Assembly: GCF_018873765.1 (NCBI RefSeq)
Contig: NC_057919.1
Coordinates: forward strand, 61,704,484 to 61,768,483
DNA length: 64,000 nucleotides
Direction of reading: 5' to 3'
Origin: Telopea speciosissima
Lineage: Eukaryota > Streptophyta > Magnoliopsida > Proteales > Proteaceae
The translations under genes were made by a program, and so were the position numbers. A model generated the notes under the pieces. The model did no database searches. It had not been told where the DNA came from and saw only the letters and a list, made by a program, of their open reading frames with translations. Positions 10,871 through 64,000 of this stretch are shown here, piece after piece (position 1 is the first letter of the stretch; every line of letters begins with the position of its first letter).

Positions 10871-11198
10871 ATGGAGAAGGGCAACCACCCAGTAGGAGGA
10901 GAAGGGAATGGTAATGGTTTACTATCAGAGACAGAGCCACTCCTCAAGACCCAAAAGCCACAGGATTGTTTGGATTGCTTGGAAAAGCCTGGAGAACATG
11001 ACAAGCTCAAACTCCAAACTAACAAAGGAAGGTCACTCTCCATGGTTTTTCTCAGCACTTTCGTTGCTGTTTGTGGGTCTTTCGAATTTGGATCTTGTGT
11101 ATGTCTCTCTTCTTTTCTTTTGTGAATTTTTATTTTCTCAAGTGCGGTGCACTGTCCAGTGCATCTCTTGGGCATCCGACGGTCACCATAAGACTGAG

Positions 11199-11235
<37 letters not shown>

Positions 11236-14200
11236 CTAGGGAGAAGAGTGATCTGAGCTCTTTTTTCCCATTGAATTTTAAACTTCTTTAATTTCAATTT
11301 ATTGGCTGTGCAGGTGGGCTTTACGGCTCCTCTCCAGAATGTCATGAAGGATGATCTTGGCCTGACTTTATCTCAGGTTATTCATTCTTTATGTCTTCTT
11401 CTTGTGTGCTGTGTGTTGAGCATGCTTGGTAATCTAGAGATCGGATCGGTTGATTCACTTGGATTAATTGGATCAGTATCGACAGAGGGTGCTCTCGAAT
11501 ATTGACCGATCCTATACTGTTCACTGGTATGGTCTAAGGGTAAAAATGTAACAAAATCAATTTTTTTTATTAAAACACTGAGTGGGGTCAATTCCATCTG
11601 CTCCAAACCGATCTGGTTCAAGTAAGCAGAATTGGCAACGGAAGCAGTTTCCATGGATCCTGATTCAGCCGGAATCTCTTTGCACCGTAGAACTATTTGG
11701 AATTAACCAGAATCTTAAGGCATTAAATGGAGAGAACTTCTCAACTATATAGAGGCAACAAAGATCAAAACAATTTGATGTGGGACTAAAACTCCCAACA
11801 ACGTAACACTCCTCTCGCGTGACCTCAGTTCTAATACCATGTTGGAGGGTAGCGTTGCAACAGGGTCGGGTTGGGCCCAACATTTTAAAACCCCAGCCCA
11901 ACTCTGAGTCCCCTTAGTTGAGCCTAGGCCCGGTCCGACCTGACCTTGACTAAGGGCCTAGAAAATCCAACCCTGACCCGTCCTCAAGGTCGGGTCGGGC
12001 TGACCCTGATTGGCCATGATCATTGAGTGGGGGAAGGGAGAGATGCATGGACTAGACCGAGTTCGGTTAGATTGAAGAGAAAATTATTAATTTTGTATAA
12101 AATAACATTATAATAAAATATAAAGTAAACATCTTGTATATCCCCTGAGGTTTGTTCACATGTCATGTAACTCTCAAGATTTTTAAAACCTTATTGATAG
12201 ACATCATGAGATTGACGGAATACCCATTCGGTTAGATTGAACATATTAAGTGATGATGTCAGCCGATCATAAATTCGTGAAAAGCCAAATATCTATGGCA
12301 ATAGGAGTTTTCCATAATATCCTTTTGGATAAATTAGAATCAATTAGAGGAAAAAATGAGTTCCAGAGTCTTTGGTGGGTGGCGGACGATTGCAGAGGCG
12401 CCGGAAAAGAGGAGGAAGAAGAAAGAAGGGAAAATCGGTTTTGGTTCTTCTAGAGGTCAGCGGCCATGGCTGGAATAAGGGAGAAATGGGTTTTTTTTGG
12501 TTTCCGATTTTTGGTTTTTAGGTTCAGAAATGGAGATGGGTTTCGGTGGTCGTTCTTCTGCGCAAGGTTAGTTGTTACTATCTTCTCATTCTCCTTTAAT
12601 CCTTTAAACAACGCTTTGCTTTTCTCTCCTTTAATTTCATTTCTGAATCTCGATGAATGAGCAAGCAGTAGTAGCTTTGAATGTGGTGGATGATCGATTT
12701 GCTGTCCACATTTATTTTTTCTACATTAATCTCTTGCTACTTACTTGATTTGGGGAAAATAGGAGGAAGGAGAGAAGAAGAATCTGTGTAATGTTTGGAT
12801 TTCTCCAATTTTGTTCTCTTTTCTCTTCGGTAGTCCCTACAACGTCACCTAGTCAAATCCCAGTTATTATTCCCATGGGTTGGATCCTCTCACTCAGGAT
12901 CCATATCAGGGTTTTGTTTCTTCCATCTTCCGCCCTTGCTTATTCTTCTTCTTCGTCAGTGGTGCCCAAAACCCTTTTTGGTTCGTCCTCAAAAACTGGT
13001 TTTTTGTGATGGCCATTTTAGTTTTGGTTATTTGGGAAGAAGATGTACAAAGACTATTTTGGTCTTTTACATTGTAAAACTAACAACTAACTAACACCAG
13101 AGGTTTATGGGTTTGTAAGTAAGGTTTTAAAAATCTTGGGGTTTACATGACACGTGAACAAACCTTAGGGAGTGTACAAGATGTTTACTCTAAAATATAT
13201 TATCTTTTATTATCTTCATATATAATATATGGGAAGCAGTTTTCTGTACGGGAGTGTGGCCTACACCAGCACTCCCATGTGTCTATCTCTCTCCTCCTTA
13301 AAACAAGGGGCAGAGATGTCTTTTCACATGGGGAGGAGAGAGATAAACTCACGGGAGTGTTGGTGTAGGCCACACTCCCGGACAGAGAACTTTTTCCCAT
13401 AATATATTATATAACAGAATATGTATGTAACTATGTAACAACAACTGCCTAGCGCAATTGGTGAGCTGTAGTGTGCTTCATGCCTATGCTCACCAGGAGG
13501 TCTCGAGTTCGAGTATCTTGACTGTTACCTTCTCCCTCCTCAGTTCCCCCCCCCCCCCCTTAAGAAAAATTTATAAAATTTTCAGCCCTGACCCACCCTC
13601 AGGGCCAGGTATCTCAAACCAGGCCTTGTTCGGGCTCAGGGCGGGTTTGGACCTACAAGGCCAAACTTGCACCCCTATTGGAGGGTCCAACTCAAAGCCC
13701 TAATGCATCAAGTGGAGTGAACTCTTTGAGTATATGAAGGCATGCCGATGTAGGACTAAAACTCTATAATTCCCAAGATCCCAACAATTAAGTCCAATGT
13801 GGGCTTTACTAATTTCAACTAGCCAATATGTATTATGGATGTTCTTATAGAAGTAAGATCTATAATTGGGAGTTGGGTTCCTGTTTGACTTGGTGAAACA
13901 ATGCAGTACTCCTTGTTTGGCTCCATAGTGAGTATTGGTGCGATGATCGGTGCTATCAGTAGTGGGCGGATTGCTGATTTCATTGGCCGAAAAGCTGTGA
14001 GTGATGAACATCCATTAAGAAGAGAAATTTGATATTGATAAGCTAAAATTTTTCTTCTCTAACTTGTTTTTTATTTGATTCTTTGTATGGTTTAATGAAT
14101 CAATGGATCGAGCACAGACCCTGAGAGTGTCATCGGTGTTGTGCATTGTAGGATGGCTTGCCATTTATTTCTTCAAGGTTATTAATTTGTTTGTTTCATC

Positions 14201-17200
14201 TCCACTACTTATACTCTCCAAATTTGATAAATAGCTAAACTTATTTCTTTTTCATCTCCACTACTTTACAAATTTGATAAAATTGAGTTCTTAAAATCTC
14301 TCTATATGTTCTTTTTTCTGTTTGTGACATTTTCTCAGTAACCTGATATCAATCTTAATGTTTCAAAAGGGTTATGTAATACTGGATCTTGGAAGATTCT
14401 GCACTGGCTTTGGAATTGGAGTATTTTCCTATGTGGTATGATTTTCTTCATTTTCCCTATAATTCTGCTCACTAACAAATTCTTTTACAATTATTTCCTT
14501 TTTAAATCTACATAACTGAATTTCTATGAGAAGTAGGAGTAGGAATGTAGGATACAATGTTAGGGTGACTAACTAGCAAAACCCTTTGTGTGAATCATAT
14601 ATCTTGGTTTGTAGGTGTTGCTTTTGGGTGTTTTCTTCAATTTCAAGTTTGTAATGTAGGATTCTCTGAGCAAGCAGCATAGGGGATAGCATCAATGGGT
14701 TGCGATAAAATGATGTCATCCATAGGAGGGCAGTGAGGTCATTTCATATGGGGAGGAGAGAGAGATAGACACAAAGGTGCTAGCGTGCTCTACTCTAGCG
14801 GTTTAGAGAACCTTTCCCCATGTTTTTAATGAGAAACCAAAATAACTTTGGACCAAAGTTTTTCTTCAGCCATGATGAATCCATTCACCTTGGGCTCTAG
14901 ATCGACATGAGAGGGTATCAGGAGGGTGTTTTTAGACTTATACTAAAATCCTATAGGAGTGTGTAAACCCTACGATGGTGGCTAAACCTTCATCCCACAG
15001 TGAAGGAAAATTTTATCCAATAACTTTTGATTCTTTTCCCTTAAACCTGGAAGTGATATGCAGTTATTATCCCCAGAATACACATTCCAAGGGATTTTGT
15101 CTGATCTTTCCAACACTTCTTGTAGGGGTGTCAATAGGCCGGCTCAATTTGGTTTTGGTCCGGCTGAATCTGTTTCAGTTCATAACTGGGTCAAGCTGAA
15201 GCCAAACCTGTAAAGCAACTCTCGGTTTTGGTTCGAGTTATTGCCGGCTTTAATTAAGGGACTCGTATGGGTCTGGTATGGTTTCAGTGTAAATACATAT
15301 ATTAAAAATATAATAAATGGTTTTTTTTTATTTTTTTATTATCAATTTAGTTTTAGGTTTGGTTTGATCTCCAGTTTCAGTTAGGTCATTCAGGCCCGAT
15401 AAGTTTCAATTCCTACCGGTTATAGAAAACCCAAAACAAATCCGAAATGATACACATTTGGTTCAGTTCGATTTGGGCTTAAACTGGACGATTTCAGTCA
15501 GTCCAACCGGTTCGGGCTGGAATGTGACACCCCTTGCTCCTTGTGCTTGCTTTGTGCATATCCTCAAATTAATTTTAAGATGATGATTACCTCAACTACT
15601 TGAGGTCATCAATTTTATTATTTGTAGTTCAGGTGTTTGATTTGGGCAATTGGGTTCCTACTTGTAGTGTGACTAGCCTGCCAAACCATAAATCAAATCT
15701 TCCAACTTTCCCACCAAAAGTGCTTATTGAAGAATGAACAGGTACCAGTCTTCATTTCAGAAATTGCACCAAAAGATCTCAGAGGTGGACTAGCGACTAT
15801 AAATCAGGTGAACTACTGATATTCTATTATACTATAAAGAAGAATTAGTGGGAGAACTAGCGATCCTTCATAAAATCAACAATGACACTTCTGTTTACAG
15901 TTTATGCTTAATTGTGCAGCTCATGATAGTTACTGGAGTTTCAGTTGCTTATGTCTTGGGGACTATACTGAATTGGCGGACATTGGCATTGACTGGTAAT
16001 TCCATGAGCAGTTACTGAAATTTCTGTATTTAATTCTCATCATAAATGTGAAGTAATAGATATTTACAGAGTTGAATGGCCAAATTTATAGGAATTGTTC
16101 CCTGCATTGTTCTACTACTGGGTTCGTTCTTCGTTCCTGAGTCTCCTAGATGGCTGGTAAGCTCATCTAATCCACTAGAAACAAGAAAGGAAAATCATGT
16201 AATGTGCTTGATGTTTACAGACACTATTAACTTTTCTTTCAGGCTATGGTTGGCCACCAAAAGAAGTTTGAAGATGCATTGCAAAGGTTCCGCGGCAAGG
16301 ATGCTGATATTTTAAAAGAAGCTTATGAGATCCAAGTTCATATTTTTTTTCCAGCTACATATAGATCCCCAGTTCACTTAGAGAATGTAGCAAATTTCAT
16401 TTTTATTAAGCCTTCTGTATGGCTTTGGCAGGACTCAATTGAAATTCTTCGACACCTCCCGGAAGTTAAAATGCTAGATTTGTTTCGAAGAAATTACCTG
16501 AGATCTGTCATTGTGAGTCCTTTTTTTGACCCAGTGGCAAAGAACCATGACCCATATGGAAGTTCATAAAAATTTCTCTTTTTTTGCCACTAAGCTTTTG
16601 ATGTTCAGGTAGGAGTTGGGTTGATGATGTTTCAACAAATTGGAGGGATCAATGGAATTGGATTTTACTTGAGCGAGATTTTTGTATCTGCAGGTAGACA
16701 TTGTATTAGAATCTCTCAGTGAGACTTTGTTAACATATCTTTACTAACTCTTTATCTAAATTGAGCTTTCAGGATTCCCTTCCGATGTTGGGATTGATTT
16801 TTATGCTTTTTTACAGGTTAATTTCTTCAATGTTATAGATAGTCTTATACTTTTTCTTGTTTTACAGCCCTGATTTCGCTCACTTTTTACATGATAACAT
16901 CCTGTAGGTTCCTGTGACTGTTTTGGGGGCAATCTTAATTGATAAAGTTGGTAGAAGACCTCTTCTGTTGGTAGGAAGTAGAATAAAGCCTCCATAGAAT
17001 AAGAACATATTTAAAAAAAAACCTTCTTTGATGCAATGGCTTTTGCTCTTTCCGTTTCAGATTTCTGCGTCGGGTTTGTTCATAGGCAGCACTCTTACAG
17101 GGATAGCATTCTACATGAAGGTACTCATCAAGTTTCCAACCAAGAGCAATCTTTGAACTATTTTCAGATTTCTGCATCGAGTTCGTCTAATACTTCAAGA

Positions 17201-18148
17201 TTTTGTTGTGAATCAGGTCCATGAATTATCACCTCAGTGGGTTCCTCTGCTGGTTTTTACTGGCATCATGGTAACAAGACAATACTGTATATGAAGAGAA
17301 ATTTATTTGATATTACAAAGTTTCTGCTAAGGGGAGTATGCACCTATATAGCTTGATTTGTAACAATCAAGTTAGAAATGCACTTCATACAGATCAAACA
17401 TTTTTTTTCCAAAGAAACTTTAGTTGCCAAAAGAAAGAGTCTAATTTTTTTTTTTTTTTTTAATGTGTTTGAAATGAGCTAAGTTGAGGCCATGTTGAGG
17501 ACATACTATGTTTCAGCTAGCTAGTGAGCTGCTGGACATTCAGTGTTGATGACAACTAGTTTAAGTGTTCCTGTGCTGCAACAAATGAACTAAAGTGAAT
17601 TTTTTTGCTGTGGGTAGAGTGATTTCTCCTGTATGTGTTAAATTCAATTCACTATGAATCTGGAGCAGGTATATATAGGATCTTTCTCAATTGGGATGGG
17701 AGCAGTTCCTTGGGTCTTAATGTCTGAGGTAACTTGAAGTTCTCAACGTTTGATACTATTCAGTTTATCTTAATCTTGTAACCTTCCTTTGGTTTCCTTC
17801 TCTGTCTGTATGCAGTTATTCCCCATTAATGTGAAGGGAAAGGCCGGAAGTTTGGTTACACTGATGAACTGGATTGGGTGTTTTGTGGATTCCTACACTT
17901 TCTATTATCTCATGAGTTGGAGTTCTTATGGTAAGGGGATCTAATCTTAAAACCCTCTTATGTTTGCTCATTTTTTTGATTCGATATGGTGAGAGAATCT
18001 TCACTGAAACCTGTTCATGTGGTTATTAGGTACTTTTTTCGTCTACGGTGCCATGTGTGCCCTGGCTATTCTGTTTGTGGCCAAGCTAGTACCGGAAACA
18101 AAGGGGAAAACATTAGAAGAAATCCAAGCTTCAATGACTACTTCATAG
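10871..18148 (+). CDS. ERD6-like: ERD6-like (ESL) sugar transporter, copy 1, intact, 18 exons
   Basis: Exons: 10871-11098, 11314-11376, 13907-13996, 14118-14177, 14370-14435, 15742-15807, 15920-15995, 16092-16156, 16243-16335, 16432-16512, 16609-16693, 16773-16816, 16908-16970, 17061-17120, 17217-17270, 17669-17728, 17816-17930, 18030-18148. All junctions are GT-AG, the phases agree, and the sum is 1488 nt (495 aa), the usual length for the family. Family hallmarks are [16 protein letters not shown] after loop 2-3, [24 protein letters not shown] and the terminal [12 protein letters not shown]. The N-terminus has ETEPLL, an acidic dileucine of the type that directs ESL proteins to the vacuolar membrane. 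The expected role is facilitated, probably proton-linked, monosaccharide transport out of the vacuole, with 12 membrane spans. Family members are often stress-induced; the sequence does not show that here. The ATG at 10871 is the first in frame and is conserved in all copies. Intron 2 (2.5 kb) is swollen by insertions. Confidence 0.93.
11198..11234. repeat. (CT)n microsatellite in ESL copy 1 intron 1
   Basis: About 17 CT dinucleotides occur in intron 1. The same place in copy 2 has a shorter GA run on the opposite strand (about 40153-40178) and copy 4 has a short CT run (about 57948-57961), so length varies among paralogues. Confidence 0.85.
12123..13190. mobile_element. MULE-type TIR element (1.07 kb) in ESL copy 1 intron 2
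   Basis: A perfect 9-bp target duplication TAAAATATA flanks it (12114-12122 and 13191-13199). The ends AAGTAAACATCTTGTATA and the complement of TACAAGATGTTTACTC begin inverted repeats of about 65 bp. The matching place in copy 2 (39073-39081) has a single TATATTTTA, the empty site. The interior is not transposase; it is GC-richer, with gene-like stretches (about 12350-12460 and 12840-13060) that I cannot assign. A Pack-MULE with captured host DNA is a fair guess, not proven. Confidence 0.85.
13231..13400. mobile_element. Fold-back MITE (170 bp) in ESL copy 1 intron 2
   Basis: The ends carry complementary GGGAGTGTGGCCTACACCA and TGGTGTAGGCCACACTCCC, and the middle (CATGTGTCTATCTCTCTCC against GGAGAGAGATAAAC) also pairs. 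It is flanked by AATATAT on both sides. The same spot in copy 2 reads straight through (about 39040-39060), an empty site. Related sequences near 14705, 37780 and 60370 are shared by several ESL copies. Confidence 0.8.
13441..13575 (+). mobile_element. tRNA-derived SINE in intron 2 of ESL copy 1
   Basis: The head resembles a tRNA: an A-box-like TAGCGCAATTGGTGAG at about 13450 and a B-box-like GAGTTCGAGTATC at about 13504, spaced as in RNA polymerase III promoters. A C-run and an A-rich tail follow. The same element is in copy 2 (38905-39025, opposite strand), so it predates the copy 1/copy 2 split. It is not seen in copies 3 or 4. Confidence 0.75.
15123..15533. mobile_element. TIR element with AGGGGTGTCA ends, intron 5 of ESL copy 1
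   Basis: It begins AGGGGTGTCAATAGGCC and ends GGAATGTGACACCCCT, giving a short inverted repeat. The body is rich in GGTTCGG and GGTTTGG words. The same insertion is at 37069-37476 in copy 2, and its right half is at about 60540-60738 in copy 4, so it predates all the duplications of this gene. No target duplication is clear. Confidence 0.7.
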
Positions 18149-18789: not shown

Positions 18790-19023
18790 GTTTTAAATTA
18801 TAAAAAGACATTTTTACCCTTATTATATCTTGAACTAAATTGATAAAATGAAAATACCATTTTTACCATTTTTACATCCTCAAATCAATCCCCAACCTCA
18901 TCCTCCTGCTACATTTCTGTCAGAAAACCTAAATTCCCAAAACTACAATGCATTAAAAAGGAAATGATATGTACAAAGGAATCCTAAAGTTGGTAGAGAA
19001 GAAGAAAAAAGGAGAGGGGAAAC

Positions 19024-19302
19024 TTAAGCCCAACCCTGTTTGTAATGGTGGAAGAGGTCTTCAGTTTGGGCGTTCTTGAAGGCACTGCAACCGATGAGGT
19101 ATACCCAAATCAAAGCGACGACGGTAATGATGAAGATGATGTTAGCCCTCCTCCATTCCTGCCTCAGGTTCCCTAACAGCCCTGCCTTGCAAGCGTTGCA
19201 ACTGTAGCACAGCTCCGACTTGTCGTGGTTCCACAAGTAGCAGTCAGGATCCACAGTTGGGTTCTCTGGGTTTGTCCACGCCGTTGGGTTCACATAACCA
19301 TA
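19024..19302 (-). pseudogene. Tetraspanin last-exon fragment captured in Pack-MULE 1
   Basis: The frame reads the end of a plant tetraspanin (TET8/TET9 type): the end of the large extracellular loop with conserved cysteines (DPDCYLWNHDKSELCYSCNACK), then the last membrane span (IIFIITVVALIWVYLIGCSA) and a short cytoplasmic tail ending in a stop at 19024. The GCCKPP motif that should precede it is deleted here but present in the second copy (53251). Only the C-terminal exon exists, without promoter or first exon, so it is a captured gene piece. It runs antisense towards the ESL 3' end. Confidence 0.85.
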
Positions 19303-19449
19303 GAATCAACAATCGAGAAATGTAGATGATGAGGAAAGAAATTTAAAAGAAGAATAAGAATGGGAATTGGGAATTGAGACATGAATTAAGAAACGGGAAA
19401 GAACAGAAGGGCAGTAAAGACCTACCATTTCTTAATTTGGGGATATTAG

Positions 19450-19590
19450 GAAGCAGTAGAGACAACGCGAGAGAGGTAGAGGCCTGCAATGAGAGGAATG
19501 AAAAAGAGGACGACGAGGCGGGGGTCGGGATCGGAGGACTGGAAGGTCTCATAAAGTCATTGACAGAGAGGGTCATCGCTGGAGCCGAAA
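19450..19590 (-). pseudogene. Hyccin-like exon fragment in Pack-MULE 1 (tentative)
   Basis: On the minus strand the sequence encodes, with a stop inside, YETFQSSDPDLRLVVLSFIP then LIAGLYLSRV. This resembles the N-terminal part of plant hyccin-family proteins (plasma-membrane PI4-kinase complex) as I remember them, but the match is from memory and short. It lies upstream of the tetraspanin exon, separated by about 150 bp of non-coding DNA, so two unrelated exons sit in one element. Confidence 0.4.
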
Positions 19591-19950
19591 ACAGTAGATG
19601 AGTTTTTTTTTTTATTAAAAAAAGAAACAGTAGATGAGTTTTGGGTTGCAGGAGGAGGAGGAAGAACAAGATTTGGGAATTTTAGGTGTTTTTTTTTTTT
19701 TTGGTAGGAGAGATTTTAGGTTTGAGAATCTAAGATGGGTAAAAATGGTATTTCCATTTTATCATTTTAGTTCAAGATATAATAAAGGTAAAAATATCTT
19801 TTTTTTTTTTTTTTGGTAATGATAAAAATCTTTTTACACTTTAAAATTAACACTGTCACCTTCATGGGTACGGATGTAATTGTTGAAACAATGGGGTGTC
19901 CTTTTATTGTTTCAAACACAAGGAGGGGGGGGGGTCCATGTAATTTGTTC

Positions 19951-20228
19951 TATACTTTTTTAATGGAAAATGAGAAGTGGGTTTGAAATGAAATGTGTGT
20001 AATAGTTGAGATCTAAGGGTCGATTTTAGGGTTTTTAGGACTGATTCCGGTTGATTTCGATCAATTCAAACAAATACCAATTCGACCCCGGTTTGGATTT
20101 GAATAACCTTACATTGGGATGTTTTTCCCATAAAATAAACTTGTATTTTGAATAAGGACTTGGGAATAAAAAAAAAAAAACCCTGTACAAGTTAATGACC
20201 AATAATTGTCATCTTTAGCCACAAAAAA
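19951..20228 (+). repeat. Orphan ESL upstream block, first part
   Basis: This matches the distal upstream DNA of ESL copies 1-4 (for example GAATAACCTTACATTGGG, also at 9335, complement of 40840, and 54120). It continues at 29269-29766 after the large insertion. Since it follows Pack-MULE 1 as the block does in front of copy 4, it once led to another ESL gene, which is now missing. Confidence 0.75.
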
Positions 20229-21356: not shown

Positions 21357-21954
21357 GGTAAAAATCTTTCCAAGCAAAAGGTAACTTTGAAATAATAGAT
21401 GATACTAGGAAAGATTCGTCAAGAGAATGGCCCTTAGAGATGATTTGATTCATGAGACCTTGCAACTCACAGGTTTGTGAAATAATAGACTTATCTCGTA
21501 CCATCCTGTAATCAAACAACTTACTTATAATAAACTTCTTGTTGCCAGCATCTTCAATTTTGTACTTTTTATCGAGATCCTCCCATAGTTCTCTTGACGT
21601 GCTGTCTGCAAATTTGGGCTCATACACATCATAAAGTGTGTTTGATAACCCATTGAGGATGTAGCCCTTGCACATGAAGTCGTCTTGCTCCCACTTCTGG
21701 GGCTGCTGTTTCTGCACCGGTGCCTCTCCACTTGAAGCTTCTGCAGTGGTGTCTGTCGGTGTCAGTGCTACTGGCTTCTCTTCGTTCAGGACATGAGCAA
21801 GTTTCAAAGCAGTAAGGAAGAAATATATCTTCCCTTTCCAACGTTTGAAAAATGACCCATCAAACTTCTCAAGTTTGCTTATCTCGTTCCCAGGTATCTT
21901 TATGATTGCAGTCTCCTCCATTGAACAAGTACTGTCTTAAGATTGTTAAAAAAC
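21357..21954 (-). mobile_element. Partial second Copia unit (leader and gag only), fossil
   Basis: The stretch after the 3' LTR repeats the leader and gag start of Copia element 1 (gag frame from about 21921) with near identity, then stops abruptly near 21357 inside gag. This LTR-internal-LTR-partial-internal array is the pattern left by unequal recombination between LTRs of tandem or sister copies, or by adjacent insertion. Confidence 0.8.
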
Positions 21955-22668
21955 TGTAACAAAAGGAGAGGACAGAAAGATGGCCTGAGTCGAACGAAAT
22001 CGTTCTGTCCTTAAGACAGTATTTGCACCCTCCTAATCCTGTAAAGGGGTGCAGCAAACCTGCCTCCCAAGATAAATCAGGCGGATTGTTACTGGTTGCA
22101 GAGACAGTAACACTGTGAAGCTATCAGAGATTTTTTAATATATTGGATTGAGAGAATTCGTGGCCCATTTATAGGCCCACAAGGCCTGTTCGGATGGGTC
22201 ACACCCATTGGCTCATATGGCTTGACCTGACAGGTCATAACTATTGGGTTAGGCTCCCTTGGCTGTTCGTGTGGGCTGCAACTCTTGGGGTCAATGTTAA
22301 ACCAAGGGTTACACTCCCTCTTTGATCAGCCACCGATCCAACGGTCGGATCGATCCTAAGCACCCTTTGATCAGACACCGTCGATCCCGAAAAGATTAAG
22401 GCGACATACTGCGACGATGCGTACGTGCGAAGTGCAAAGTGCACCATCAAAGCGCCACATTGCGCCTCACACATGCGCACGCACACTAGTACGCGTATGC
22501 GCTCGGACAGTTACCGTCCTCACTCGCAAGTGCACCGTACAATCTCTTCTAGCATTACATGTGATAATAATAACTACTAACTGCTAACACATATAAACCC
22601 AATGAGCTTTCCTTTCATAGCCGATGTGGGACTAAAAGTCCACATCAATATTTTGAAAAATTCCAATA
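21955..22668 (-). mobile_element. 3' LTR of Copia element 1, shared with a second partial unit
   Basis: 714 bp, same length as the 5' LTR. On its downstream side (minus strand) it is followed not by host DNA but by the leader and gag of a second unit. The LTR is therefore shared by two tandem units. Confidence 0.85.
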
Positions 22669-25600
22669 ATTTCTCCCAATTTTTTAAAATAATTGTGCCT
22701 CAGTCAATAAATTCTCTGTACTTCTAAATTATACTTACATAAAGGTGTCTTTTGATTTGAACCTTTATGTTGTCAAAATACATTAGTACTTGTCAAAAAC
22801 GAAGTAGCCGTAGCCTTGAACTTAGAATTTTATAGCGACAAATCTAATATACTAGACATATGATTTACTTGAACTTAGTTTCAATAACACTCGCACATTT
22901 ATGGCCTTGTGCTTTCATCTTAGGTTTTCATAAGTGCCTTAGAGACAAGCTTTGAATCTCGCAGAAGCGGCCCTACTTCCTGTACTTATATAGGTGAATC
23001 TAATAAAATACAATTGTATGACTTGCATTGTCTATAAGGTATAGACTCATTGAAGGATTGATCCTACCCTCTGTCGGTTTCTCCATACAAACATGCACTA
23101 CCTGGAGATGTCAAGAGATCTTATCTCTACTAGTTGAGTGCATAGCCGGTTATTACTACAAGTATTTTTTCATTGAACTAGTTGACTAGATATTGGTCTA
23201 GTGTCTAGTTGGTTTCCACTTGCAGGTTACCTCTCATTTAAAAGCTTTAAACCCATCTCCCTGGAAGTCTTCCATACCGCATCCCTACCTAGGCCTTTTG
23301 TAAAGGGATCAACTAAACTTTCCTTTGACTTTACATAACTAATAGTCACAACTCCTTTGATGAGTTGTTCTCTTACATAGCTATGTCTTAAACTGATATG
23401 CCTTGACTTTTCATTGTAGACTTTATTATAAGCCCTTGATAATGTTACTTCATTATCACAAGATATTGATATAGCAGGCATTAGCTTAGGCCACAGAGTA
23501 ATCTCTGTTAAGAGGTTCCTAAGCCATTCTGCTTCCTTTACTGCCATTGCTAAAACGATAAATTCAGACTCCATAGTGGAGTGTGAAACTACAGTCTGTT
23601 TCTTGGATCCCCAAGAAATTGATCCTCCACCCAAGATAAATATCCAACCACTTGTGGACTTTGATTCATCGGATCCTGTGATCCAATTAGCATCTGTGTA
23701 TCCTTCTAGTACTACGGAAGAATCCTTATAACTTAATGCATAATTCATTGTGCCCTTTAAGTACTTAAGTACTCTAGAAACTGTATTTCAATGAATTTGT
23801 CCAGGGTTATGAGTAAACCTACTCAAAACACCAACATCAAAAGCTATACCAGGACGAGTACACTGCATGACATACATTAAGCTGTCAATGATACTAGCGT
23901 ATTCCAATTGAGACATACAATTTCCTTCATTAGAAGTTAATCTAATAGAATGATCATATGGGGTAGCAACTGGTTTACAGTCCTCATGATTGAATTTCTT
24001 TAATATTTTCTTTATGTAATGAGACTGTGTTAAAGAAATACAATCAGAGGATCTAACAATTTTGATTCCCAAAATTACATTTGCTTCACCCATATCTTTC
24101 ATATCAAAACACGAAGATAGGAAGGCCTTTGTCTCCAAAACAGTGCTTGTATTAATACCAAAGATTAATATATCATCAACATATAAACATATTATAACAC
24201 CATGTCCATTCTTGAATTTAGAATAAATACATTTATCAGATTCATTTATTCTAAATCCATTTGCTACAATTTTTTGGTCAAATTTATCATGCCATTGCTT
24301 AGGAGCGTGTTTTAAATCATATACAGATTTGACTAGTTTACAAACCTTACTTTCCTAGCCTTTCAAAACAAACCCTTCAGGTTGTTCCATATAAACTTCT
24401 TCTTCTAAATCTCCATTTAGAAAAACAGTTCTAACATCCATTTGGTGTATAACAAGTTTATTAATTGATGCTAAAGCAATTAACAATCTAATTGTACTAA
24501 TTCTAGCAGCAGGAGCATATGTATTGAAATAATCAATACCTTCTTTTTGCTTAAAACCCTTGGCTACAAGCCTAGCTTTAAACTTATCAATGGTTCCATC
24601 AGCTTTAAGCTTTCGCTTAAAAATCCACTTACAACCAATAGATTTAAGTTCAGGAGGTAAATCTGTTAAAACCCATGTTTTATTACCCATAAGAGAATCC
24701 ATTTCATCATTTATAGCTTCTTGCCAAAAAATAGAATCTTGAGAATTCGTGGCTTCTCGAAAAGTCAATGGATCATGTTCAACATTATACACACAAGAAT
24801 ATGTAACTTCATTTATGTTTCCTTCTACCAAGAATTGATAGAAATCTGAACCAAATGATTTTTTCACTCTAACTCTTTTGCTTCTTTTAAGTTCAACACT
24901 CTCATTATTCTCAGAATTTGATTGAACAATATCTTGATCCTCCTTGTTTGTATTTTCATTCTTTCGTTTTCTAGAGAATGAATCCTCAAAGAACTCAGCA
25001 TCTCTAGATTCTAAAATTGTATTTTGGCTAACGGTCTCTGTAGATTCCATCGTTAGAAATCTATAGGCCTTGCTATGTTGGGCATAGCCAATGAAAATAC
25101 ATTCAATTGCCTTTTTACCTAATTTAGGTCTTTTTGGATCAGTTAATCTTACCACTGCTCTACATCCCCATACTTTGAAATATCCAAGAGAAGGTTTTCT
25201 CTTCATCCAATATTTATAGGGAGTAATACTAGTCTTTTTATGGGGTATACGGTTAAGTATATATCAAGCAGTCATTAATGCTTCCCCCCATAAATTCTTT
25301 GGTAAATCAGAAGTAAGTAAAAGTGTATTCACCATTTCTGTTAGAGTCCTATTTTTCCTTTCTGCTACTCCATTCTATTGAGGACTATAGGGTGTCGTTG
25401 TTTGATGGATAATTTTATAAACTTCACAAAAATCATCAGTGGAGAAGTATTCCCTTCCCCTATTAGTTCGTAAGATTTTAATCTTACGATCCAATTGGTT
25501 TTTCACTTCGGCTTTGTAGATTTTGAATTTCTCCAAAGCCTCATCTTTAGTCCTTAACAGATATACATATGTGTATTTCGAACAGTCATCTATAAATGTG

Positions 25601-41670: not shown

Positions 41671-41675
41671 AATCC

Positions 41676-51419: not shown

Positions 51420-52661
51420 GGCTCATCATGATCAAAGTCCAATTACAGAACTATTCAAGAAGTAAAGACTGAGGGCTCCCAGTATATTAGCTAATCACTA
51501 CTTGTTTTTTTTTTTTTAAATTATTTTAGTTTAACTACAGAGATGATCCCATTTGTCATTTACATACTTAGTTGATATAAAGAGTCAGTCCACACCATGG
51601 TTTTAGTGCACGGTATCGGAACGGGTATCGGCAACACGGAAAACCGATACGATACCGATATGGTATCGGCCTGAATCAGTTGTATCGAACAAAATTATCC
51701 CTGAAATTCCTTAAAAAATGAGTTTTCTGACCATTTTACTCCTTGTTCGTACCCTGCTACTGATATGGTATCGGCACAGTATCGATATCGGTGACTAGCA
51801 AAATCAATACATATCGCCCGATACGAGTGATATGATACCAACACTTAGAACCATGGTCTACACACACGCAGTGGAGTGGTTGTGGTTGGCTGTTCTGAGA
51901 TCCGACAGATCCTAAGGAACCTATTATTTAAGGGTATTGGTTGTTGGATCTAAAATTTGGATTCTTTATCTCTTTATTTATTTGTTGCTGCTTGATTCTG
52001 AATTTGCTGAGGTGGATGAAAGGTACAAAAGATAGGGAATAGTCGGATGAGCCCGAGATTAACTCATAGTAACTCCAATGATAAAGTTAGAATCGGGCAA
52101 TCGGTAAACAAATGTGAAATACAATAAGAGTAATAATTGTGAATAGTTATTTCTGTCAGACACTGTTCCTTCTATAGTCCGAATTGGTTTATATTACGAT
52201 CTGTTTGGGTGGATGGTGAGCTATTACAACTTCTTTGACCATTCTGAAAGAGATTTAGAAGACATAACTTGTCAAGTGTATTAATAATATGGGGTCCACA
52301 CGGTTGTACGCTAATTAGGATCTCCCTACTATGCAGCCATGTGTATAAGCATATTTTATGTATATCATGATTCTTTAAATATTTTGTGCTTTTCTGCTCC
52401 TGAGGATTTGGATTCTCTCAATAACGACCACCACTTTGTTTTTTCTTTTTTTTTTTTCAGCTAAAGAGGACCTCCCTATTATGCAGCCACGTGTATAAAC
52501 TTCTCAATAATAAGGTTATTCAAATCCAAATCGAGGTCGAATTGATACTTGTTCGAATCGATCAAAATCAACCGAAATCAGTCCCAAAAACCCTAAAATC
52601 GACCCTTAAATCTCAACTATTACGTTTCAAACCTACTTCTCATTTTCCATTAAAAAAATAT
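51420..52661 (-). promoter_or_regulatory. Upstream block of ESL copy 3
   Basis: The complement matches the upstream DNA of copies 1, 2 and 4 and the orphan block at 29269-29766. A MITE interrupts it at 51594-51857. It ends at Pack-MULE 2. Any promoter activity is now attached to a pseudogene. Confidence 0.5.
51594..51857. mobile_element. MITE with ACCATGGTT ends in the copy 3 upstream block
   Basis: It begins ACCATGGTTTTAG and ends CTTAGAACCATGGT, an inverted repeat of about 13 bp. The body is rich in GGTATCGG words. It is not present in the orphan block or in copies 1, 2 and 4. Confidence 0.65.
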
Positions 52662-52954
52662 AAAGCAAATTGCATGCACCCACCCCCCCCCCCCCTCCCC
52701 CCTCTCGTGTAGTCGTGTTTGAACCAATAGAAGGATACCCCAGTTGTTTCAACAATTACGTCCGTACCCATGAAGGCTAACGGTGCTAGATGCTAATTTT
52801 AAAATGTAAAAATATATTTTTATCTTTATTATATCTTGAATTAAAATGATAAAATGGAAATGCCATATTTACCCTTTTTAATTCTCAAACCTAAAATCCC
52901 CAAATCTTCTTCTTCCTCTTCGCCCTGCGACCCAAAACTCATCTAGTTTTTTTG

Positions 52955-53093
52955 GCTCCGGCGACGACCCTCTCTGTCAATGACTTTATGAGACCTTCCA
53001 GTCCTCCGATCCCGACCTCCGCCTCGTCGTCCTCTCCTTCATTCCTCTCATTGCAGGCCTCTACCTCTCTCGTGTTGTCTCTACTGCTTCCTA
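52955..53093 (+). pseudogene. Hyccin-like exon fragment in Pack-MULE 2 (tentative)
   Basis: Same piece as in Pack-MULE 1: YETFQSSDPDLRLVVLSFIP and LIAGLYLSRV, with one stop before YETF and one after SRVVSTAS. The identification as hyccin-like is from memory and weak. Confidence 0.4.
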
Positions 53094-53250
53094 GAATCCC
53101 CAAATTAAGAAAACGATAGGTCTTTACTGCCCTTCTGTTCTTTCCCGTTTCTTAATTCATGTCTCAATTCCCAATTCCCAATTCCCATTCTTATTCTTCT
53201 TTTAAATTTCTTTCCTCATCATCTACATTTCTCGATTGTTGATTCTATAG

Positions 53251-53592
53251 TCAGGATGTTGCAAGCCTCCTACGGTTTGTGGCTATGGTTATGTGAACCA
53301 AACGGTGTGGACAAACCCAGAGAACCCAACTGTGGATCCTGACTGCTACTTGTGGAACAACGACAAGTCGCAGCTGTGCTACAATTTCAACGCCTGCATG
53401 GCAGGGCTATTAGGGAACCTGAGGCAGGAATGGAGGAGGGCTAACATCATCTTCATCAATACCGTCGTCGCTTTGATTTGGGTATACCTCATCGGTTGCA
53501 GTGCCTTCAAGAACGCCCAAACTGAAGACCTCTTCCGCCATTACGGCTTAGGGTTTCCCCTCTCCTTTTGCCTTCTTCTCTGCCCACTATAG
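53251..53592 (+). pseudogene. Tetraspanin last-exon fragment in Pack-MULE 2
   Basis: It begins after an intron-like acceptor (GATTCTATAG) with SGCCKPPTVCGYGYVNQTVW, carrying the GCCK motif of plant tetraspanins, then the cysteine-rich loop, the fourth membrane span (VALIWVYLIGCSA) and a tail that has lost the original ending (LFRHYGLGFPLSF... to a stop at 53592). It is a captured exon without the first three membrane spans. The retained acceptor shows genomic rather than mRNA-derived capture. Confidence 0.87.
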
Positions 53593-54285
53593 GATTTTCT
53601 TTGTATGTTACCTTTTCCTTCTAAATTAACGATAAAAATTATGCAGGTTTGTTCCATAGCCATCACTAGTGTACATATCATTTCCTTTTTTTAATGCATT
53701 GTAGTTTTGGGAATTTAGGTTTCTGCCAGAAATGTAGAAGGATGAGGAAGAAGAAGAAGATTTGGGGACTCTAGGTTTGAGGATGTAAAAAGGGTAAAAA
53801 TGGTATTTTTATTTTATCATTTTAGTTAATGATATAATAAAGGTAAAAATGTCTTTTTACATTTTAAAATTATCACCATCGGCTTTCATGGGTATAGACT
53901 TAATTGTTGAAACAACGGGGTGTCCTCTTATTGTTTCAAACACGAGGGGGGGGGGGGGGGGGTTGCATGTAATTTGCTCTATACTTTTTTAATGGAAAAT
54001 GAGAAATGGGTTTGAAACGAAGTATGTGTAACAGTCTAGATTTAAGGGCCGATCTTAGGGTCTTTAGGACTGATTCCGATTGATTCGAACAAGTACCAAT
54101 TCGACCCCGATTTGGATTCGAATAACCTCACATTGGGAAGTTTTTCCCATAAAATAAACTTGTATTTTGAATAAGAACACGGGGATAAAAAAAATATAAA
54201 ACTTTGGAGAGTTAATGGCCTGTAATTGTCATCTTTAGCAAAAAAAGAAAAAAAAGAAAAAATACAATGGTGGTTAATCGTTATT

Positions 54286-57693: not shown

Positions 57694-60600
57694 ATGGGTA
57701 TCATAAACATGGAGAAGGTCAACCATTCAGTAGGAGAAGGGAATGGTAATGGTTTACTATCAGAGACTGAGCCACTCCTCAAGGCCCAAAAGCCACAGGA
57801 TTATTTGGTTTGCTTGGAAAAGCCTAGAGAACATGATAAGCTCAAACTCCAAACTCACCAAGGAAGGTCACTCTCAATGGTTCTTCTCAGCACTTTCGTT
57901 GCTGTTTGTGGGTCTTTCGAGTTTGGATCTTGTGTATGTCTCAACTTTCTCTCTCTCTCTATCTATGGAGAAGAGTGATCTGAGCTCTTTTTTCCCATTC
58001 AACTGTAAACTTCTTTAATTTTCAATTTATTGGCTGTGCAGGTGGGCTTTACGGCTCCTACCCAGAATGGCATCAAAGATGATCTTGGCCTGACTTTATC
58101 TCAGGTTCATTCGTTATGTCTTCCTCTTATTTATTTTTTTTTTTACTTGCATTTTTACTTGCTGACTTGTGTGGTATGAGTAGAGCCATAGTATTAAATC
58201 TCATCTTGAAAGGATATTTCAGTCGGATCGAAATTTTCAAGATACTGAAATCTCGTTGAAATTTCATCGAAATATTGTAATTTTTCTATGATTTTTGCTT
58301 AGCCATTTCAGGGTATAAAATGCTAAAATGATCCAAATAACCGAATTTTTGACGAAACGGTGCATTTTTAGACCTAAATTTCCAAAACAATATGATCGAA
58401 ATTTCCGAAATATTGCATTTTTTCATTTCAACATAGCATCTTATCTCAGCCCAGCCAAAATATCCGAAATTCGGCGAGTTTTTGAACTATGATGGTTCGT
58501 AATCTTGAAATCGGATTGGTTGATTCACCAGATTAGATCGATATCGATTGAGGTTGATCCCGAATATTGACCGATCCTACACCGATTCACCGGTATGGTC
58601 TTAGGGTAAAAATATAATAAATCAATTTTTATTAAAAGACGGGCGACAATTCCATCCGATCCAAACCAATTTAGGGCAATACCGATCTGGTTCAAGTAAG
58701 CGGAATTGGCAATAGAATCAGTTTCCATGGATTTTGATTCAGCTAGATCAGAATCTTAAGACATTAAGTGGAGAGAACTTCTCAATTATATAAAGGCAAC
58801 AAAGATCAGAACATCATGTTCAATAACCTTGGATATTTTAATTAATGAATTTGCTTTGGTTCATCCAAAAAAAATATATATATCAGAATACTCTGATGTG
58901 GGAATAAAACTCCTAACATCTTATAACCCCTCTCGTGTGATCTCGTTCTGATACCATGTTAAAGGGTCAAACTTAAAACCATAATGCATTAAGTGGAGTG
59001 AACTCTTCGAGTATATGAAGACACTAGAGACAAGAACATGCCGATGTAGGACTATAACTCTATAACTACCAACATCCCAACAATTAAGTCGAATTTGCAC
59101 ATTACTAATTTCACATAGCCAATGTGTATTATGGATGTTCTTATAAAAGTAATATTTGGGAGTTGGGTTCCTATTTGACTTGGTGAAACAATGCAGTACT
59201 CCTTGTTTGGCTCGATAATCAGCATTGGTGCAATGATCGGTGCTATCAGTAGCGGTTGGATTGCTGATTTCCTTGGCCGAAAAGCTGTGAGTGATGAACA
59301 TCCCTTAAGATGAGAAATTTGATATTGATGAGCTAAAATTTTCCTTCTCTAACTTCCTTTTTATTTGATTCTCTGTGTGGTTTAATGAATCAATGGAGCA
59401 CAGACCATGAGAATGTCATCAGTGTTGTGCATTGCAGGATGGCTTGCCATTTATTTCTCCAAGGTTATTAATTTGTTTGTTTCATCTCCACTACAAATTT
59501 GATAATTTTGGGTTCTTAAAATCTCCCTATAAATTCTCTGTTTTCTTTGTGACATTTTCTCAGTAACCTGATATCCATCTTAATGTTTCAAAAAGGGTTA
59601 TGTAATACTGGATCTTGGAAGATTCTGCAATGGCTATGGAATTGGAGTGTTTTCCTATGTGGTATGATTTTCTTCATTTCCCCTATAATTATGCTCACTA
59701 ACGCTCCTATTTATTGTTGTGTGAGGGGTGGGGCTGGAATCGGGTCGAATCGGTTACAAAAAACCTTAAATTGGCTACAAGTCACTTTAGATTTCTAACC
59801 AAATAGGCTGATTCCGCCGAATGCTATTGGAATCAGTCTTGGCCAATATTGATACAGATCGGCCGTATCAGAAGATTTTTCCCTTTTCTTTTTTTTTTTG
59901 CATAAATCAATTTTTGGACGGTTTTACTTTTACTTCGAACCATTATGCTGATCCGATATCGGCCAAGTATTGGTATTGGCCAATACAGCCGATTTGATGC
60001 CCATGATCCGATTCCTCGAACCCTATTGAAGATTGGAATAAGTAAAGCATTATCCCAGTTCTTGCATACTTAATTCTTGGGCCTAGTTCATGGTATAAGG
60101 AAACTGATCCCGATTTCGATTTCAGCCGAGTTCTGGAATTCTAGAGTTCAAACTCTATTAATTAAGGAGTAAGGACCACTGCTTTTACAATTATTTCCAT
60201 TTTAAATCTACATATCTGAATTTCTATGAGAAGTAGAATACAATCTCAGGGTGTCTACACTAGCAAAACCCTTTGTGTGAATCATATGTCTTGGTTTGTA
60301 GGTGTTGTTTTTGGGTGTTTTCATCAATTTCAAGTTTGTAATGTCAATTAACCACATATATTTAGAGAGAGGATTCTCTGAGCAAGCGGCATAGGGGATA
60401 CCACCAATGGGTTGCGATTAAAATGGTATCAATTATAGGAGAACAGTGAGGTCATTTCATATGGGGAGGAGAGAGATAGACATAAAGGTGCTAGCGTACT
60501 CTACTCTAGCGGTTAAGAGAACCTTTTCCTATGTTTTATTATCAGTTTGGTTCTAGGTTTGGTTTGATCTCCAGTTTCAGTCAGGTTACTCGGTCGGCCT

Positions 60601-63600
60601 GATCAGTTTTGATTTCTACCGGTTTTGGAAAACCCAAAACAAAGCCGAAATGATAAACATTCGGCTTGGTTCGATTGGGGCTACATTGGACGATTTCGGT
60701 TGGCCCAACCGGTTCAGGCTGGAAGGTGACACCCCTAGCTCCTTATGCTTGCTTTGGGCATATCGTCAAATTAATTTTAAGACGATGATTACCTCAACTA
60801 CTTGAGGTCATCAATTTTATTATATGTAGTTCAGGTATTTGATTTGGGCAACTGGGTTCTTACTTGGTAGTGTGACTAGCCTGCCAAACCATAAATCAAA
60901 TCTTCCAACTTTCCCACCAAAAGTGCTTATTGATGAATGAACAGGTACCCGTCTTCATAGCAGAAATTGCACCAAAAGATCTAAGAGGTGGACTAGCGAC
61001 TGCAAATCAGGTGAACTACTGATATTCTATTATACTATAAAGAAGAATAGTGGGAGAACTAGACTCTCTATGGCAACAATTTGTGTTTTTTGAGCGTTTC
61101 TGGGTCTGACACAGTTTTGTGTTTCTGTGTTTTTTGAGCGTTTCTGGGTTCTCAAATGCGATAGGATATAGGGTGTAAATGAATAGCCGAAATCTGTTTC
61201 CGAAATCCGTGTCCGTATCTGTTTAGCACTATCCAAATCCATCCGAAAAATGGATACGGATACGGACAGGCTATAGCTAGCCGAAAAGCTATATTTACAT
61301 GTAAACGGATAAAATATCCGATTCGTATCCTTGTCCGTATCCGTTTAGCACTATCCGAATCCGTCCGATAGCTAATCGGATGCGGATGCGGATGCGTATA
61401 TAGCACTATCCGAGCCGAATCCGATCCGTTTATAGCCCTAATAGGATAACACTGCCAAAAAAAAAAAAAAAAAATCGTTTCTGTAACTAAGAAGAAACAT
61501 AAACATGTATGGGTAAAATAGGGGTGCCACAGGTAGTAATTCAAGGTTCTAATAATGCAGATCAACAAGAACAGATTGAAGAGATGAAATCATCCAATGC
61601 TTTCAAGAAAAAGACATTCAAAATGAACATAATTATCAGATTATTATCATTTGTGCTTTCATGAAGAGCACAAAACTGCAACATTAGGAACAAAGTTGCA
61701 TTCAAATAGGTAGAAGAAGATTTCAAACACCACAACATCAATAAAAACCCCTAAATCAAAATGTAGACCAATACTCATTTTAGGACAATGTTATACTTCA
61801 TATCTTGGGTTGAGGAGCACAGGTCGAGTGCGAAGAAGAGTTGCAGAGGTCGAGCGACGAGAGTTTGTTAGAAATCAACAAAAGGAGAGGACAGAAAGAA
61901 GGCCCGAGTCGAACGAAATCGTTCGTCCTTAAGCATGATTTGCACCCTCCTAATCCGCAAAGGGTTGCAAACCCGCCTCCCAAGATAAATCAGCGGATTA
62001 TCGTGCGAGACAGAACACTGTGAAGCTATCAGAGAATCTTTTTTTAATCCTCGGACGAGAGAATTCGTGGCCCATTTATAGGCCCACAAGGCCTGTCGGA
62101 TGGGTCACACCCATTGGCTCATATGGCTTGACCGACAGTCATGACTATTGGGCGGCCCCTTGGCTGTTCGGTGGGCTGCAACTCTTGGGGTCAATGTTAA
62201 ACCAAGGGTTGCACTCCTCTTTGATCAGCCACCGATCCAACGGTCGGATCGATCCTAAGCACCCTTTGATCGACACCGTCGATCCCAAAAGATTAAGGCG
62301 ACATATCTGACGATGCGCACGTGCAAAGTGCAAAGTGCAAAGTGCGCCATCAAAGCGCCACATTGCGCCTCACGCACACGCACGCGCGACGCTGCACGCG
62401 CCGGACGGGTACCGTCCTCATTCGCAAGTGCACCGTACAATCTCTTCTAACATTACATGTGATAATAATAACTACTTACTACTAACACATATAAATCCAA
62501 TGAGCTTTCCTTTCATAGCCGATGTGGGACTAAAAGTCCACATCAATATTTTGAAAAATTCCAACAGTTGCAAAGGTCGAGCACGAAGAAGATGAGAGCG
62601 GACGATTGCAAAAAAGAGTTGTAGGTCAAGAACCTAGTTGCAGAGGTCGAGCGCAAAGAGAGCACCAGAGGTTGATCGGATTTACAGAGGTCGAGCAAGA
62701 AGAAGATGAGAGTAGTCTTCCGAGAGAAGAGTTAGATTTTAGGGCAAGGTTTCACCTATTATTATGTTTTTCTGGCAAATTCCAGTATTGCCCCTCGTTA
62801 ACTTAAGTGGGAATGGTGTTTCTTCAAAAATTGGTAGAAGTGTTTCTCTAATGTGAGAAACATCATTTTGGTGTTTTCAAATGGGGCTCAAAAAATAAAA
62901 CCGGACATACCATATAGTTTTCACCCCGTTTCTATTCTAAAAAAGGAGAAAAACACTACAATTGATTTTTAAGAACGTTTCCATACAGAGCCCTAGCGAT
63001 CCTTCATATAAACAACAATAAAACTTCTGTTTACAGTTGATACTTAATTGTGCAGCTCATGATAGTTACTGGAGTTTCAGTTGCTTTTGTCATGGGGACT
63101 ATACTGAACTGGCGGACATTGGCACTGACTGGTAATTCCATGTAGTTACTAAAATTTCTTCATTTAACTTTCATCATAAATGTGAAGTAATAGAGATTTA
63201 CAGAGTTGAATGGCCAAATTTACAGGAATTATTCCCTGCATTGTTCTACTACTGGGTTTGTTCTTCATTCCAGAATCTCCTAGATGGCTGGTAAGCTCAT
63301 CTGCTCTGCTAAAAATAAAAAAAGGAAGTCACGTAATGTGCTTGATGTTTACAGACACTATTAACTTTTCTTTCAGGCTATGGTTGGACACCAAAAGAAT
63401 TTTGAAGCTGCATTGCAAAGGCTTCGTGGCAAGGACGCGGATATTTCAAAAGAAGCTTATGATATCCAAGTTCATATGTTTTTTTCAGCTCTAGATCCCC
63501 AATTAACTTAGAGAATATAGCGAATTTCGATTTTATTAAGCCTTCTGTATGGCTTTGGCAGCACTCAATTGAAACTCTTCAACACCTCCCAGAAGCTAAA

Positions 63601-64000
63601 ATGCTAGATTTGTTTCAAAGAAGTTACCTGAGATCTGTCATTGTGAGTCCTTTTTCTGACCCAGTAGCAAAGAACCATGACCCATATGGGAGTTCATAAA
63701 AATTTCCCTTTTTTGACCACTAAGCTTTTGATGTTCAGGTAGGAGTTGGGTTGATGATGTTTCAACAATTTGGAGGAATCAATGGAATTGGATTTTACTT
63801 GACCAAAATTTTTGCATCAGCAGGTAAACATTGTATTAGAATCATTATTTTTCAGCGAGACTTTGTTAACATATCTATACTGACTCTATCTAAATTGAGC
63901 TTTCAGGGTTCCCTTCCAATGTTGGGATTGTGCTTTATGCTTGTTTACAGGTTCACTCCCTCAATGTCCCAGACTTTCTTGTACTTTTTCCTGTTTTACA
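57694..64000 (+). CDS. ERD6-like: ERD6-like (ESL) sugar transporter, copy 4, exons 1-12, runs off the window
   Basis: Exons: 57694-57933 (second ATG at 57709), 58042-58104, 59197-59286, 59404-59463, 59596-59661, 60945-61010, 63056-63131, 63226-63290, 63377-63469, 63562-63642, 63739-63823, 63907-63950. Exon lengths and phases equal those of copies 1 and 2, and every exon is open. Exons 13-18 lie beyond the right edge. Family marks: [30 protein letters not shown] and [19 protein letters not shown] gives the N-terminal acidic dileucine. One oddity is that exon 10 begins with His instead of Asp because the acceptor is followed by CAC. Intron 6 is about 2 kb through insertion (about 110 bp in copies 1 and 2). 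The predicted role is as for copy 1; whether it is complete cannot be judged here. Confidence 0.9.
58190..58500. mobile_element. TIR-like repeat in intron 2, shared by ESL copies 3 and 4
   Basis: It begins near AGCCATAGTATTAAATCTC and ends near TTTGAACTATGATGGTTCG, with many GAAATTTC/TTTCGGA words. The complement is in copy 3 at 50529-50790 and 45715-45770, split there by Copia element 2. Copies 1 and 2 lack it. The stretch near 58443 is the empty Copia target (GAGATAAGATGCTATG when complemented). Confidence 0.65.
58819..58886 (+). mobile_element. Very short 5'-truncated LINE tail, intron 2 of ESL copy 4
   Basis: Sister of the insert at 45294-45362: GAATTTGCTTTGGTTCATCC followed by an A-run and TATATA. 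Confidence 0.75.
59702..60178. mobile_element. Insertion in intron 5 shared with ESL copy 3
   Basis: Counterpart of 43837-44468, lying between GCTCACTAAC and CTTTTACAATTATTTCC, which are adjacent in copy 1 (about 14468-14495). Confidence 0.65.
60540..60738. mobile_element. Partial AGGGGTGTCA element, intron 5 of ESL copy 4
   Basis: Matches the right half of 15123-15533, ending GGTGACACCCCT. The left half is missing, so it is truncated in this copy. Confidence 0.6.
61167..61445. mobile_element. MITE-like repeat rich in GGATACGGAT words
   Basis: It begins TAGGGTGTAAATGAAT and ends GTTTATAGCCCTA, loosely complementary. Related to 8278-8465. Confidence 0.5.
61874..62566 (-). mobile_element. Solo LTR of the Copia element 1 family
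   Basis: Matches 21955-22668 and 27199-27912 from AACAAAAGGAGAGG to TTCCAACA, in the same orientation, but with many small length differences against both. It lies inside an array of GTTGCAGAGGTCGAGC repeats. No target duplication is clear, so the copy is old or rearranged. Confidence 0.8.

Follow-up and report, generated by a model that had tools for sequence, protein, structure and literature searches.

Shared intron insertions and a putative exchange tract in a four-copy cluster of ERD6-like sugar transporter genes of Telopea speciosissima

The window analysed here, 64,000 nucleotides of Telopea speciosissima (C4:61704484-61768483; the genome searched comprised 822,943,500 bases in 1287 contigs), contains a sugar transporter gene in four neighbouring copies; the reading frame is intact in three of them, and the fourth copy is broken. 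Judged by exon structure and by sequence of the ERD6-like (ESL) type, the locus is taken to be a local cluster of ESL monosaccharide transporter genes, which belong to the major facilitator superfamily. A sequence-only reading of the window had proposed that insertions shared between introns reveal a nested history, in which one ancestor gave rise to copies 1 and 2 on one side and to copies 3 and 4 on the other. The gene models, insertion sites and empty sites bear out a four-copy ESL cluster with shared insertions at the same places. Distances along the gene suggest a more complicated past, in which a middle tract was probably, if by no means securely, homogenised between copies 1 and 2 by ectopic gene conversion after the insertions had occurred.

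Exon borders were picked by hand with the known features of ESL proteins as a guide and then checked for GT-AG borders and an open frame. Copies 1, 2 and 4 each have 18 exons, 17 of 17 introns bounded by GT-AG and no internal stops. The last exon of copy 2 was also modelled 3 bases longer, through a second stop, and copy 4 overruns the window end by 1.2 kb. Copies 1 and 2 form an inverted pair, 16 kb apart. Copy 3 is damaged: exon 1 is short by 1 nt, which causes a frameshift, exon 4 is short by 12 nt, and nothing recognisable was found beyond part of intron 5. The flanking sequence examined, 30 kb on the left side of the window and 36 kb on its right side, showed no additional ESL copy. When the proteins of copies 1 and 4 were submitted, both matched Sugar_tr (PF00083) over 427 residues, nearly the whole protein, with E-values of 7.3e-94 and 5.6e-94, respectively. 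The best solved-structure matches of the copy 4 protein are GlcP and GLUT1. What is known of the family makes it probable that the proteins transport hexoses, with the vacuolar membrane as the likely site; hexose transport and a tonoplast location are described for some members in Arabidopsis and apple (PMC8450595).

Nelumbo belongs to the same order as this plant. According to PMC8450595, an 18-exon structure ("structure 1") is the commonest ESL form (50.49% of ESL sequences), chromosome 14 of grapevine carries a tandem series of 14 ESL reading frames, tandem expansion is common, and more than 70% of the duplicated ESL genes of Nelumbo are ESL2, on our reading of the text. The present cluster resembles those arrays in its tandem expansion and in the 18 exons of copies 1, 2 and 4, but it lies in a member of the Proteaceae, has genes in both orientations, includes one dead copy, and has a history that varies along the gene. 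As biology this is a commonplace case of sugar transporters multiplying locally, and ESL genes are well documented in tandem arrays.

As outgroups we used four loci whose exon identity is high; three of them are on C7, from the 87 candidates scored out of 354, and the fourth, on C10, came from a separate search. Outgroup exons 2-17 match the cluster in length (except in locus L048, where exon 12 was not recognised) and exon 18 is close, as fitted by a script that favoured cluster exon lengths. Over exons 2-18, the outgroups are 66-71% identical in DNA sequence to copies 1, 2 and 4.

Copies 1 and 2 share a hAT-type element in intron 2. The target site duplication (TSD) TTGGAGGGT lies on both sides of the element in copy 1 and on the left side in copy 2, and the site is empty in copies 3 and 4. 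The family is large (3129 first-look candidates, of which the best 40 were scored), and the tree takes in 20 members out of 38 further places listed for it. There the elements of copies 1 and 2 group at 96% and are accordingly read as a single insertion. Nested in the hAT element is the tRNA-type short interspersed element (SINE) that had been named as common to both copies. It does lie at the same place, with a left flank common to copies 1 and 2, into which three other listed SINE places also partly reach. The two SINE copies do not group by sequence, having 2 shared differences vs 12 and 11 private ones, so position is the argument for their common origin. The SINE was accordingly rejected as a sequence-proven shared insertion.

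A second hAT-type element, with AGGGGTGTCA ends, had been assigned to copies 1, 2 and 4. It is complete in copies 1 and 2, and copy 4 retains the right half. It was rejected as a character against copy 3, whose homology stops at about 43636, short of that place. The AGGGGTGTCA 10-mer alone, with one mismatch allowed, occurs at a frequency near chance (8 found vs 4.0 expected on average, and 4 shuffles out of 100 give 8 or more).

Copies 3 and 4 have shared insertions of their own. The tail of a long interspersed element (LINE) lies at the same base in both, with a 15-bp TSD in copy 3, and is missing from copies 1 and 2, as had been claimed; one other partial match exists in the genome. The repeat reported in intron 2 of copies 3 and 4 is present, as a member of a dispersed family (best 40 of 530 candidates scored). 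The intron 5 block also lies at the same base in both copies and is absent from copies 1 and 2. It was rejected as a proven insertion, and may be an insertion in copies 3 and 4 or a deletion in copies 1 and 2, because no TSD was seen and the only matches outside the cluster are two weak partial ones. The shared insertions occupy matching places in the copies that carry them.

The protein motifs that had been listed beside the insertions fared unevenly. The residues APLQNV/APLHNV in copies 1 and 2 and APTQNGIKD in copies 3 and 4 were confirmed. The idea that APTQN is an innovation common to copies 3 and 4 was rejected, since 3 of the 4 outgroup loci carry PTQ (SSPTQ, SAPTQ, SSPAQ and SSPTQ), and on these outgroup residues PTQ is probably ancestral.

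Trees built from the exons agree overall with the insertion matrix in grouping (1,2) and (3,4), but a single part of the gene, chiefly exons 2-5, supplies the support. Where all four copies align, two-against-two sites from exon 2 onward number 33, of which 30 pair copies 1 and 2 against copies 3 and 4 (12|34). Upstream of exon 2 the counts are 2 for 12|34, 1 for 13|24 and 5 for 14|23, and the share of 12|34 (2/8 before exon 2 vs 30/33 after) differs at Fisher p 0.0004. The grouping of copies 3 and 4 does not reach upstream of exon 2. Among the four copies, exons 2-5 place 12|34 ahead by 24 log units, with a p-value of 0.0014 in the approximately unbiased (AU) test for each alternative. When copy 3 and the outgroups are included, the same exons give (1,2) at 88% and (3,4) at 61%. 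Maximum likelihood (ML) analysis with outgroups recovers (1,2) at 95% from exons 2-9, with the alternatives at AU 0.045 and 0.076.

Beyond exon 9 this signal fades. In rooted trees of exons 10-18 the three orders lie within 0.4 log units and copies 2 and 4 are joined at 61%. Shared changes polarised by the outgroups, with 20 unpolarised sites excluded, favour (1,2) at 11 of 15 in exons 2-9 vs 3 of 15 in exons 10-18 (Fisher p 0.009); the others in exons 10-18 are 8 for (2,4) and 4 for (1,4). Exon 1 prefers 14|23 over 12|34 by 3.3 log units, which is not significant (AU 0.81 vs 0.26), and this is a weak preference rather than a strong exon tree of copy 1 with copy 3 or 4. Support for (1,2) is strong within one segment; on either side of it, exon 1 leans weakly towards 14|23 and exons 10-18 weakly towards (2,4).

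A scan of copies 1, 2 and 4 placed the bounds of this segment in intron 2 and at the beginning of exon 10. Inside it, 121 of 229 sites set copy 4 apart from the other two, vs 104 of 336 outside, and none of 1000 site permutations did as well. Noncoding p-distances inside are 0.061 (0.047-0.074) for copies 1 and 2, 0.101 for 1 and 4, and 0.101 for 2 and 4; outside they are 0.112 (0.096-0.127), 0.110 and 0.111, so that the three copies are equally distant at the gene ends, at about 0.11 noncoding per pair. Synonymous divergence (dS) follows the same course, with values for 1-2, 1-4 and 2-4 of 0.066, 0.161 and 0.169 in exons 2-9 and of 0.144, 0.157 and 0.139 in exons 10-18. In exon 1 they are 0.182, 0.109 and 0.155. 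One pair is thus unusually alike within bounds and the other pairs are unchanged, the pattern by which a gene conversion tract is recognised, although it is weaker in some alignment settings. Conversion is preferred over regional variation in rate, because rate differences would shift all three distances and only that of copies 1 and 2 moves.

The nested order therefore holds for exon 2 to about exon 9. As a history of the loci it goes too far, given the upstream counts of 2, 1 and 5, the flat signal of exons 10-18 and a divergence between copies 1 and 2 that nearly doubles outside the segment. What the insertions establish is that copies 1 and 2 have, in their middle parts, an ancestor that copies 3 and 4 lack; the LINE tail and dispersed repeat do likewise for copies 3 and 4. 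They do not record the order of duplication among the loci. That order had been called independent of any substitution model, but the markers, confined to introns 2 and 5 within one segment, are linked to one another and date the middle tract only.

A plain duplication tree without exchange, in which an ancestor gave (1,2) and (3,4), each of which split again, and in which the gene ends look star-like owing to a short internal branch, would account for shared insertions at identical bases. It also agrees with the ML tree of exons 2-18, which has (1,2) at 93% and the alternatives at AU 0.060 and 0.059, and with aligned columns from exon 2 onward, where the alternatives have AU below 1e-19. One tree, however, predicts constant proportions of site patterns, whereas those inside and outside the segment differ (0 of 1000 permutations) and the distance between copies 1 and 2 alone changes. 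We regard this history as unlikely, though not negligibly so.

The same contrast in the 1-2 distance would be expected if copies 1 and 2 were young true sisters and both ends of one of them had been replaced from a more distant copy. That account needs two exchanges, and because replacement of both ends requires two events, one main tract is the simplest explanation. The non-genic flanks of copies 1 and 2 also carry the older divergence, with K of 0.106 downstream (275 nt) and 0.13-0.23 upstream. The upstream flank common to both (7530-8274 and 42345-43073) has K of about 0.14, and its first 530 or so bases (about 7530-8064) match just these two places among the matches listed, which is why the duplicated unit of copies 1 and 2 is taken to extend about 3 kb upstream. 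Replacement of the ends is accordingly judged quite improbable. An artefact of alignment or assembly would fit the drop in significance in some settings, but dS in nearly gap-free exons shows the contrast too and the 130 kb examined contain no N bases, so that such an artefact seems very improbable indeed.

Several observations weigh against homogenisation of a middle tract. With other alignments and filters and permutation of 8-site blocks, 2, 31, 9 and 72 of 300 permutations did as well, the last of which suits a plain tree. The segment was recovered in 3 of 4 settings, the fourth giving only 14121-14551; the stricter alignment filter discards many variable sites, and the scan is strong or weak according to the filter used. 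Since the bounds were set by the scan itself, they overstate the contrast between inside and outside. Windows at 16991-17498, outside the segment, also have a low 1-2 distance (0.063-0.070 vs 0.090-0.110), and within the segment exon 7 and its intron together show 10 odd sites for copy 1, 4 for copy 2 and 2 for copy 4; these anomalies may be chance or further small exchanges. Intron 2 alone gives a smaller contrast (1-2 about 0.10 vs 0.15-0.17). Exons 10-18 are flat, so they back no different tree.

If a middle tract was homogenised by conversion, copies 1, 2 and 4 would have separated first (about 0.11) and mobile elements would then have entered the introns. The tract, spanning intron 2 to early exon 10, would next have been copied between the inverted copies 1 and 2 by ectopic gene conversion (about 0.06). 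The Copia insertion into copy 3 would be later, its long terminal repeats (LTRs) differing at 3.6% of sites (K 0.037). This order is relative only, without calendar dates. On this view the hAT element common to copies 1 and 2 would be a trace of the exchange and not of the order of duplication. In the hAT tree the stem is 0.032 and the tips are 0.087 and 0.096 (276 bases), which gives, as a rough upper bound, an insertion age of about 1.35 times that of the common ancestor of its two copies, vs 1.8 for the ends relative to the middle (0.112/0.061). The lower ratio suggests, without proving, that the hAT element entered one locus and was then copied to the other; the bound leaves almost no margin against the ratio of intron 2 itself (about 1.45), a further point against the conversion reading. 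We offer only tentatively, at slightly under an even chance, that the hAT element and its SINE entered one locus after copies 1, 2 and 4 had separated and then moved to the other by conversion across the inverted pair. Markers as clean as these, with TSDs and empty sites, would thus back a tree that the loci never had.

Retroposon presence/absence phylogeny uses shared insertions at the same base, together with empty sites, as characters. The characters here are of the same type, but between paralogues conversion can move the markers. Shared insertions are often taken as near-perfect markers of descent; within gene clusters they are safe only for their own segment, and the present cluster offers a compact example for comparing such markers with exon trees and with distances along the gene. 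Clustered plant duplicates with ectopic exchange, such as the RPP8 resistance genes (PMC6771003), offer a likeness in tract exchange between neighbouring paralogues; they differ from the present case, which concerns a transporter gene in a single genome and has one main tract, about 5 kb long. A limited search found no literature linking gene conversion with tandem ERD6 sugar transporters, and no claim of novelty is built on that.

Table 1. Features of the ESL cluster and its surroundings, in window coordinates
Feature	Position	Strand	Remarks
ESL copy 1	10871-18148	+	18 exons, open frame, 495 aa; gene model
ESL copy 2	40464-34512	-	18 exons, open frame, 493 aa; gene model
ESL copy 3	51371-44515	-	pseudogene, exons 1-5 only; homology runs on in intron 5 to ~43636
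ESL copy 4	57709-65217	+	494 aa; exons 1-12 inside window (to 64000), exons 13-18 in flanking sequence
Segment with copies 1 and 2 unusually alike, putative exchange tract	11525-16432 (copy 1)	+	intron 2 to start of exon 10; scan, approximate bounds
hAT-type element with nested insertions, copy 1 intron 2	11851-13677	+	TSD TTGGAGGGT at 11842-11850 and 13678-13686
Same hAT-type element, copy 2	39073-39344	-	left part; right end lost
tRNA-type SINE nested in hAT, copy 1	13436-13560	+	position
SINE, matching place in copy 2	38894-39021	-	position
Second hAT-type element, AGGGGTGTCA ends, copy 1 intron 5	15124-15534	+	411 bp, complete
AGGGGTGTCA-ended element, copy 2	37070-37471	-	402 bp, complete
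AGGGGTGTCA-ended element, copy 4	60534-60736	+	right half only; left half missing
LINE tail, copy 4 intron 2	58814-58880	+	same base as copy 3; second TSD arm eroded
LINE tail, copy 3	45293-45362	-	perfect 15-bp TSD ACAAAGATCAGAACA
Dispersed repeat, copy 4 intron 2	58195-58490	+	sequence match
Counterpart of dispersed repeat, copy 3	50530-50782	-	interrupted by Copia insertion
Intron 5 block, copy 4	59703-60180	+	478 bp; absent from copies 1 and 2
Intron 5 block, copy 3	43818-44469	-	652 bp; same base, plus extra sequence of its own
Copia-type LTR element, copy 3 intron 2	45771-50528	-	LTRs 45771-46018 and 50281-50528; TSD GAGAT
Tetraspanin fragment beside copy 1	18791-20124	-	C-terminal part only, below Pfam cut-off
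Tetraspanin fragment between copies 3 and 4	52497-53869	+	C-terminal part only, below Pfam cut-off
Third related fragment, outside window	~71.6-75.9 kb	-	related to the two tetraspanin fragments

Copy 1 stands apart in its codons. Changes unique to it number 41 at the amino-acid level vs 16 silent, compared with 43 vs 43 for copies 2 and 4 together (Fisher p 0.01). The frame of copy 1 is intact despite this excess, for which relaxed constraint and adaptation are both possible sources.

Three tetraspanin-related fragments seem to have been duplicated along with the ESL genes. Over the longer pieces, with the three fragments called a, b and c, K is 0.084 (a-b), 0.122 (a-c) and 0.120 (b-c). The fragments were rejected as a second clock, having no certain assignment to ESL copies.

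Clusters of distantly related sugar transporter genes lie at C4:14.53-14.66 Mb, C4:9.76-9.86 Mb and C9:12.47-12.49 Mb. Most of these genes consist of one long open frame (455-550 aa), and their identity to copy 4 is 30-33%, among the best 87 of 354 candidates. Within copy 4, intron 6 carries a private insertion of about 1.9 kb (61063-62992), of which 61862-62566 resembles the LTR of the element at 21.9-27.9 kb. The Copia-type element at 21363-27913 has a 1307-bp piece, read as LTR and gag start, at both ends (94% identical); its layout of LTR, body, LTR and partial gag is as after recombination between elements. A tandem array with a unit of 31-32 bases occupies 3487-3842 and adjoins retrotransposon remains.

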